This document shows positions 15,701 through 18,700 of a stretch of DNA of 64,000 nucleotides, piece after piece (positions within the stretch are counted from its first letter, which is position 1; every line of letters starts with the position of its first letter). A program made the translations under genes and the position numbers. Location: positions 7,709,297 through 7,773,296 of the forward strand of contig NC_133230.1 of NCBI RefSeq assembly GCF_040436345.1, written 5' to 3'. The stretch comes from Pagrus major. Its lineage: Eukaryota > Chordata > Actinopteri > Spariformes > Sparidae. A model generated the notes under the pieces. The model made no database searches, was not told the origin of the DNA, and saw nothing but the letters and a program-made list of their open reading frames with translations.

Positions 15701-18700
15701 ATGTGCAGGGCAGGGCAGGGCATTAGTCTTGTGTCCACATGGGATTTGAGATGACAAATTTCAAAATTCACCAGCCTGTTTCACAACTGAGCAAACTCTG
15801 CAAGCCAGAAGTATTAGGGCCATTGTTTTTTGGGCTTTTAATTGTTGGTTATTGTTAGAAGTGTCGTGGTTCTCCAAATCCACAATTAATTTTGTCTTTG
15901 AAACAACAACTTGACTTAATCCTGGTGGCTTTCTGTAGATTAGGGTTAGGCAAGTTCAAATAATACCCTTTGGGATTCAACAAGAAAAGTAGAAATGCAG
16001 TTTGTAACAAAGTTTGTTTTCTCAAATCTGTCTGTTGGAGTGACCTTCATACCAGTCAGTTGTTTGTAGAAGTTTCTGGAAGTGCAGCTGCGCTCTTCCA
16101 AAGGGTGCCGGATGGGGCAGGGAGGGATCGCAGATACTTCCTTTTGAATTTGAAGATGAAAATCGATCGAAATCATTTCAATCAGTGTTCAGTTTAGAAT
16201 GGAAATTGTGATTAGGCATGGGACTACATGAAAAACCCATCATCTACTAATTATCAACACATTCTTTAAACTTTCAAATGAACCCTATAATTGCACTAAA
16301 GCATACTAGAATGACTTAAACCTTACATTTTTATTACATCACAGATGGGACACACCTTTCTTTTTTTAGTAACAAACAATCAAAGAATCTTAAATAAATA
16401 ATCGTAAAATATAAGGTATATATTGGTTTTTGTAGTATTTACTCCTATCCGAACTTGTTTTTGTGGGTAAACAGTGCGAAAGCCATGCTGTCAGCCATGG
16501 TAAAAGGCTTAGGCAATTCAAAATAAATCAGGAAACCAATATAGGATTGTACAACGGCAAGCTAGACAACTTTTTCAAGTCGTTCATGTGAGGATATTCT
16601 ATAACCACGATCCGCAATAAAATCTTTTATCGTTCCATCCCTAACCGTGATGTTTATCTGCAGTATATGATGATACAATTTGTCGGTGCAGTGCAATTTG
16701 TTGTCAGTATTCCTCGCAACTGAGGGTTCATACTGTCACAACCAGCTAATAGAGAGCAGAAGAGTGGCTTTAAAGCCACAATCCTGTCTTTGAACTACAT
16801 GCTGTCATCTGTGAACAGTATTAAACAGATAATTAACATTCAAATAATGTTTCAGCTAAGGTTTGTCTTTACTCCCTACAGTTTGGCTGAAAAACAATGA
16901 TTTTATTTTAGCTTCAGTTGAGCTTTGTGTTTAATGTCTGAATGTCAGTGGTAAGAGATTCACTGACTCTTCACCTCAGATTAAAAGACATTGGCAAGGT
17001 GTGTACACTAGTTGTGTGTGCAACACGTTGTAGCCAAATGTACCAGCCTCCTGTTCTGTGGTTGTGTGTGTTTGTCATAGTTACTTTGTAATAAAATGTG
17101 ACCTCAAGCTAAATGGCCAACAGCACTTGACTCACTTTCTAGTGGCCCCCTGGTTGTGGACTTGCTGTACTACAGTTTGATGTCAGCATTCATGCAGGTG
17201 TGCTTGGTATGTTGAGAATATGTCATGATAAAAATGTAAGTTCTGTGTCTGTTTTTGCAAGTGTGTGAGTGAGAAATCATTGAAAATGTCTATTCCACAC
17301 TGTTGTGATGTATATCTCCAGTTACCTTAGCGATATAGACCGTGTGACTGCGGAGGGATACGTTCCCACCCAGCAGGATGTGCTGAGGGTCCGTGTTCCC
17401 ACCACGGGTATAATAGAGTACCCGTTTGACCTGGAGAACGTCATCTTCAGGTACCCCCGTGGCACCAGGACTGCAGCATCACCATAGTTAGAGGACAGAA
17501 ACCACTGATGACTGCCAGGACATTAACACATTACTCAAGCTAGGGCTTATATATGAATTGACCCAAAAATATAAATTTGCTAGCTGATTTGTGTAAGTGT
17601 TGCTGTCTCAGTAGCGTGCAATTACGACTCAATTACAAACTTGAAAAGCTCACGTCACTACGGGGAAAGATACTCAGCAAGAGCACATTTGTTTGAATAG
17701 ACCGTGTTGTCCTACAGAGAGAAATAAAGATTATGTTGCGCCCGAGGGCCACATTAGTTAACCTGATTAGATATCAGTGGTTTGTGTTCACAATTGTGCT
17801 GAGGTTCTGGCTCCAGGATAGACACGAAGGCCAGACGTGCTGCACTGAAGCATGTGGGGAGCAGCCAGATGAAGAAGGATTAGATGGTGATGTCAAAGAT
17901 TCTCCAGGAACTCGTTAAGAAAATCAGGGAGCTGATTGGGCACGGTTTAAAACACAAAGGAATTTTAAGTTTTTATTTACATTTAGAAAAAAAGTATTGG
18001 TCCTATTCCTGCTGTCCTTGATATCATACTTGTCCAAACCTTCTTTATCGAATCCAGGTGCTGCCGTCTCTGCTGCTGAGGTCACTGCTACTACTGTCAC
18101 TGATGCCACCTCACTGTCTGTGACATAATCCACAACCCTACTTGACCTCACTGCAAATTTTGGCAATTAAAAAAGAGAGTCAAGTTAAACACAAAGCCAC
18201 TTTTTCAAGCTAATCTTACATGGTTTACTGGCAGAGTGTTGGTGGAGCAGTGACACTGACTAACACCCTTTCCTTTCTGAGATGTGGCCTTTTCTGTGAA
18301 GCTTCCTCAACAGGACTCATCCACACTTCCTGGAATGGCAGGGGGGTTGCGGTAATTGCCTGTCACGCTTTATATAACTGTTTTCCTGTCTTTTTTTTCT
18401 CTTTTATCTCTCTTTTTTCCCCCCGCACCGGCCTGCCTGTAGTTATCTTTCCGATCTGGATCGTATTGCAGATTCCAGCTATCTTCCCACTCAGCAGGAT
18501 GTGCTCAGGGTGCGCATCCCAACTACAGGAATCATAGAGTACCCATTCGACTTGCAAAGCATCATTTTCAGGTAGAAAGATGCCTGTTTTGGCTCAGACC
18601 CTCCTTGTTATGTTGTGAGATCATTAACCCATATGTCATCTGATGTGTTTTTGTCCAACGCCCCATTTAACCACATTTTTTGTCCTCCCTCTTAATAGAA

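Follow-up and report, generated by a model that had tools for sequence, protein, structure and literature searches.

Two versions of exon 4 in a gna11-type gene of Pagrus major, most likely alternatives in splicing

The window analyzed here is a stretch of 64,000 nucleotides from Pagrus major (G000:C16:7709297-7773296, in a genome of 786 Mb and 25 contigs), and it carries a complete G-alpha gene of the Gq/11 type on its plus strand, with coding exons spanning positions 729 to 22542. This gene, called the C16 gene below, holds two versions of exon 4, here named 4A and 4B. From the sequence it is highly probable that they represent the old exon 4 duplication already known from teleost gna11, and that the pre-mRNA takes either 4A or 4B, to give two full-length G-alpha-11 proteins. 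The reading frame is open with either exon, and it has 359 residues in both cases.

Gq/11 proteins play a central part in calcium signalling, and tumour mutations of human GNAQ and GNA11 fall at Arg183 and Gln209. We infer that both versions of exon 4 are spliced into mRNA, and their mutually exclusive use is likely. The two resulting isoforms would have their catalytic residues in common, and would differ at what we take to be the end of the helical domain, linker 2, residue 184 of Switch I, and the following strand.

The two versions of exon 4

The preliminary description of this DNA had pointed to two 129-nt segments, and their coordinates, AG and GT sites, lengths, phases, and residue numbers all proved correct (Table 1). 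Each is entered and left after two codon bases; 4A and 4B are homologous exons of equal length and equal reading phase, as mutually exclusive exons are, and they lie in tandem, like the copies of exon 4 in teleost GNA11 (Lokits et al. 2018, PMC5896119; statements from this and the other cited papers refer to the accessible part of each text). At the nucleotide level 38 of 129 positions differ (11, 4, and 23 at the first, second, and third codon positions), and the 11 residue changes counted earlier, from 4A to 4B, were found again: I164L, V167I, T168A, A169D, E170S, G171S, V173L, V184I, E197Q, N198S, and V199I. These had been said to lie outside the catalytic positions. The catalytic residues are indeed spared, Arg183, Thr186, and Gln209 standing at the expected places in the 4A protein with the same letters there in the 4B protein; the nuance is that residue 184 adjoins Arg183.

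The likeness of the two exons is not a matter of chance, because the 4A peptide matches 4B with E 1.2e-19 (tblastn against the window and seven Gq-family loci) and because both exons find solved G-alpha chains. When fused to exon 5, 4A has its best matches among G-alpha-11 chains (E 1.3e-50) and 4B among G-alpha-q chains (E 1.3e-52). Over 42 positions, 4B has 37 residues in common with G-alpha-q and 34 with G-alpha-11. For 4A of the C16 gene the corresponding counts are 33 and 34, so that its likeness to G-alpha-11 is slight; the 4A exon of a sister gene on contig C11 is more clearly G-alpha-11-like (31 and 37).

The residue next to Arg183 sets 4B apart. It was compared over the 129-nt exons of the window and 34 further loci that fit the Switch I pattern, which excludes G-alpha genes of other exon shape (20 exons listed, 18 after one duplicate exon pair is set aside). 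Residue 184 is Val in 15 of these 18, Phe in a gna15-like gene, and Ile in both 4B exons and in no others; Ile184 is therefore a shared, unusual mark of 4B. In G-alpha-q, Val184 is one of three residues suggested as key specificity determinants for YM-254890 (PMC6463727, where linker 2 is equated with Switch I), and it lies within the hydrophobic anchor of both YM-254890 and FR900359 (PMC7070167). The change V184M alone hardly altered sensitivity to FR900359, and its cost was larger for YM-254890 (PMC6463727). It is fair to predict, and no more than that, that 4B mildly shifts nucleotide exchange or the response to drugs; the difference between the isoforms would be a tuning of nucleotide exchange or of partner contacts, and not a new activity.

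Table 1. Features of the C16 gene, in positions of the window
Feature	Position	Strand	Remarks
Exon 1, coding, carries the start	729..864	+	Open frame, GT donor
Exon 2	13001..13185	+	AG/GT; six further Gq-family genes of the same genome have a homologous exon
Exon 3, ends TA before gtacgt	15186..15340	+	
Exon 4A, version of residues 159-202, ends LENVIF	17322..17450	+	Top solved match G-alpha-11
Intron separating 4A from 4B, 992 nt	17451..18442	+	583 nt in the C11 gene
GAGTCAAGTTAAA, 13-nt word, 253 nt upstream of 4B; putative control element	18177..18189	+	294 nt upstream of 4B in the C11 gene
Exon 4B, version of residues 159-202, ends LQSIIF, Ile184	18443..18571	+	Top solved match G-alpha-q
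Exon 5, first base G	21246..21375	+	Joined to exon 3, gives TAG
Exon 6	21494..21647	+	
Exon 7, including the stop codon	22352..22542	+	

In a Pfam search with 10 of the 95 open frames of at least 90 residues in the window, two weak matches were obtained, both under the cut-off, and the window gave 0 Rfam matches at gathering scores.

The sister gene and the name of the gene

The C11 gene (loci L009 and L010, minus strand) contains the same two versions of exon 4, in the same order and with the same donor types, 583 nt apart. On exons 2, 3, 5, and 6 the C16 and C11 genes are sisters, with support of 93/97 for protein and 84/88 for DNA, both below the star of the tool. Between them, 4B is identical at 41 of 42 residues, with proportions of synonymous and nonsynonymous differences (pS and pN) of 0.51 and 0.052, and 4A at 34 of 42, with pS 0.53 and pN 0.102; these are pairwise counts and not a formal selection test. 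Both exons look constrained, with few protein changes against many silent ones. The weak donor of 4B might suggest a relic, decaying and no longer taken up in splicing, yet the residues kept between the genes while half of the synonymous sites changed, together with splice-site dinucleotides intact in both genes, make such a relic very improbable. The preliminary description had asked whether 4B might be absent or full of stops in relatives. As far as this was examined here, 4B is intact in the paralogue of the same genome, and the pair is reported from other fish by Lokits et al. (PMC5896119).

Is the pair as old as the two genes that carry it? Trees that make 4A and 4B sisters inside the C16 gene, or inside the C11 gene, were rejected by the approximately unbiased (AU) test (p 0.0035 and p 0.0031, respectively). 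Of the seven clades in question, the best tree already contained three; the remaining four went to the test, which rejected two and did not reject the others, and the p values are uncorrected. The 4A/4B pair therefore predates the split of the C16 and C11 genes, unless exchange between the genes has homogenized like exons.

A separate observation concerns exon 5, in which the C16 gene and L010 show synonymous differences at 5 of ∼26 sites, versus ∼116 of 200 in exons 2, 3, 4A, 4B, 6, and 7 pooled (Fisher p 0.0002, uncorrected for picking exon 5). At fourfold sites the contrast is weaker (4/16 versus 31/69 in exons 2, 3, 6, and 7). This low divergence could reflect gene conversion, or a control element just downstream of the alternative pair.

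Another question is whether the gene is properly called gna11. The preliminary description had spoken of a gna11 gene with a duplicated Switch I exon, and much of this stands: the gene is of the gna11 type, its two versions are intact and conserved, they recur in the sister gene, and the duplication is known in teleost GNA11. The solved chains gave no decision between gna11 and gnaq. The label gna11 follows from the C11 sister gene, from its gna15-like neighbour, and from a separate gnaq gene on contig C5, which matches solved G-alpha-q at 102 of the 112 residues of exons 2 and 3. The gna15-like gene lies on the plus strand, opposite the C11 gene, and starts ∼35 kb from C11 exon 2 (C11, ∼14.79-14.82 Mb; L009, L011). 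The names gna14 and gna15 are presumptive. In the DNA tree of exons 2, 3, 5, and 6, both genes on contig C12, the gnaq-like L017 and the gna14-like L018, are joined with support of 93/96, and these two labels are therefore unsure. The list of G-alpha genes is a lower bound, with 121 of 179 candidates scored and 34 loci compared (8 + 26 stretches).

Splicing of the pair

One exon 4 is the simple route to the normal protein, and the other outcomes can be read from the frame. When neither exon 4 is used, the TA at the end of exon 3 and the G of exon 5 form a TAG stop. The same TAG on skipping of exon 4 is found in 7 of the 7 Gq-family genes examined; it is therefore a general property of the boundary between exons 3 and 5, and it did not evolve for the pair. 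As a side remark, it amounts to a built-in guard against losing the Switch I exon. When both exons are included, the frame is kept and 43 residues are added, as had been calculated, to give a protein of 402 residues. It could then be that the exons are used nonexclusively, some mRNA carrying both or 4B being a minor cassette exon. The in-frame product of 402 residues would allow this, as would the intervening intron, which at 992 nt permits normal splicing; against it, the fold would then hold linker 2 and Switch I twice, an arrangement that probably would not function, and Lokits et al. (PMC5896119) describe the inclusion of either one. Taken together, nonexclusive use is improbable.

How, then, is the choice between 4A and 4B made? 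The best guess is that it is set by RNA-binding proteins acting on weak splice sites. A G at position +5 is present in 0 of the 4 alternative donors of the C16 and C11 genes, versus 28 of 34 among the remaining donors of seven Gq-family genes (Fisher p 0.0028; the count leaves out every last exon, and of the first exons it takes in only the one of the window gene). A weight table gives the four alternative donors scores between -0.1 and 0.6, where the mean is 3.8. One known mechanism is steric exclusion, in which the intron between the two exons is very short, although not all mutually exclusive exons require it; it was considered here and is ruled out by the intervening introns of 992 and 583 nt, other mechanisms being possible. 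Because of the length of the intron in the C16 gene, RNA-binding factors are preferred to steric hindrance, and bound at the weak donors they would decide between 4A and 4B.

The introns themselves offer few hints. The C16 and C11 introns have 38 11-mers in common, listed without a control. For the word GAGTCAAGTTAAA, a shared word as long was obtained in 1 of 200 shuffles, but the local alignment score was reached in 37 of 200, three introns having been tested; in the other two introns the word length was reached in 24 and 11 of 200 shuffles, and the local score in 157 and 120 of 200. In the window gene, 11 inverted repeats with 73-84% complementarity lie within 15341-21245. PTB-like words occur 5 times in one gene and 4 times in the other within the 250 nt before 4B, and before 4A there are 3 in the C11 gene and none in the C16 gene; these counts of splicing-factor motifs support no claim. 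The AG-free stretches upstream of 4B measure 99 and 78 nt, and those of the other Gq-family exons measured range from 18 to 113.

Age of the pair and its place in the published record

Lokits et al. 2018 (PMC5896119) have described a duplicated exon 4 for GNA11 in three groups, coelacanth, gar, and teleosts, and for GNAQ in the first two; they propose that either one is included and that the pair arose before the two rounds of whole-genome duplication (2R). In medaka, stickleback, and pufferfish both gna11 genes have both variants (PMC5896119); the C16 and C11 genes fit this pattern, and the arrangement is therefore already known. The likeness to GNA11 exons 4.1 and 4.2 of that work extends to the family, the exon, the either/or proposal, the retention in both gna11 copies, and the single exon 4 of teleost GNAQ, of which one is found here in L026 (C5) and one in L017 (C12). 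The present genome is one more case. In the accessible text of PMC5896119 (figures and additional files aside), and in literature searches that were aimed by name only at Val184, the double-skip stop, the donor pattern, and Ile184 were not met. As far as those sources go, the additions to the record are the double-skip stop, the donors without G at +5, Ile184 in 4B, and a zebrafish target that encodes SSYLPT. This target belongs to a guide for gna11b, which a study of zebrafish from 2025 placed in exon 4 (PMC12045641); when nine exon 4 sequences of the Gq family were compared, SSYLPT was present in the two 4B exons only. On the strength of these six residues, it suggests that a 4B-type exon may be functional in zebrafish. 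The same study describes strong conservation of eight YM-254890 contact residues across zebrafish Gq, G11, and G14 (PMC12045641).

Related arrangements are known elsewhere. GNAO exons 7.1-8.1 and 7.2-8.2 are likewise mutually exclusive homologous exons of a G-alpha gene and have been retained across vertebrate clades (PMC5896119), but they form the last exon pair of GNAO and do not encode linker 2 and Switch I. Exons 4a and 4b of OGDH (PMC7969005) are mutually exclusive in a single vertebrate gene. The duplicated exon 5 of lancelet preGNAQ (PMC5896119) is also a local exon duplication in a Gq-type gene, although it concerns another exon and is reported as an independent event.

With regard to origin, the best exon 4 tree places 4B with the C5 gnaq exon and away from 4A, with support of 65/79; exon 4 trees comprise 42 codons, which are too few for a deep tree. 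The only pair to reach the star in the 8-row DNA tree is that of the two 4B exons (95/96), which is also the only one to reach 80 in the 11-row protein tree (81/93). Instead of an ancestral tandem duplication, the pair might have arisen within gna11 after the split from gnaq, or gene conversion or exon insertion might have brought a copy of the gnaq exon into the gene as 4B. Neither a single clade of all four gna11 exons (AU p 0.111) nor a clade of 4A with the C5 gnaq exon (AU p 0.137) was rejected, and copying would also account for the closer match of 4B to G-alpha-q than to G-alpha-11. The best tree speaks against such an origin, although with its support of 65/79 only, as does the report that gar and coelacanth have the two versions in GNAQ as well as in GNA11, with a duplication before 2R (PMC5896119). 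An origin within gna11, or by copying, is the less likely course of events, perhaps a minority chance, and it leaves the present-day working of the gene unchanged. A second, relic exon 4 was sought in the compared gnaq, gna14, and gna15 stretches, where no match was better than E 5. Beside this, the diverged gnaq-like gene L017 (C12:21462001-21472000) has a single exon 4 that ends LENVVF, versus LQSVIF in C5 gnaq, and from its sequence it may have retained the other ancestral version, possibly an exon of the 4A type.

A number of observations weigh against the reading of 4A and 4B as an old gna11 pair in alternative use. Exons 2 and 3 of the C16 gene match G-alpha-q at 88 of 112 residues and a G-alpha-11-like chain at 87 of 112 (the latter is labelled G(q), and its letters in this region are taken by us for G-alpha-11). 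The reading frame itself is no bar to double inclusion, and weak donors are not unique to the pair, the exon 3 donors of the C16 and C11 genes scoring equally low (-0.2 and 0.1). A blastn comparison of the C16 and C11 introns gave no conserved element past the exons and up to ∼23 nt of flank, save one 33-nt match with E 0.12, and GAGTCAAGTTAAA before 4B is a borderline candidate for a conserved element. In the trees, the two 4A exons are joined with support of only 70/82 (8-row DNA tree), and a 9-row DNA tree with a gna15 row leaves all six inner branches open. The C11 gna11-type (minus) and gna15-like (plus) genes stand head to head, unlike GNA11 and GNA15 in the species of Lokits et al. (PMC5896119), where they are head to tail. 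In that work, gna11b of zebrafish and cod has one exon 4 variant only. In its DNA, the zebrafish target resembles the C5 gnaq exon most (16/20), with C11 4B next (15/20), and single gna11b mutants of zebrafish had no overt jaw phenotype (PMC12045641).

A bolder idea, which we hold only tentatively and think rather less likely than not to be right in full, is that an ancestral splice toggle survives in the pair, switching between a G-alpha-q and a G-alpha-11 type of linker 2 and Switch I, and that this toggle preceded the separation of gnaq and gna11. Mammalian GNAQ and GNA11 would each have kept one version, and the 4B isoform, whose Ile184 would sit in the interdomain cleft, would show altered nucleotide release and an altered sensitivity to YM-254890. 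If this is true, part of the difference between human GNAQ and GNA11 is a frozen splice choice, one that these fish still make within a single gene.

For those who work with fish, the pair has practical sides. Where knock-outs or drug tests consider a single annotated exon 4, an isoform may go unnoticed, and in work with YM-254890 it is worth asking which exon 4 is expressed. More generally, a fish gene that swaps the segment around Arg183 would be a natural test of what this segment tunes in Gq/11 proteins.
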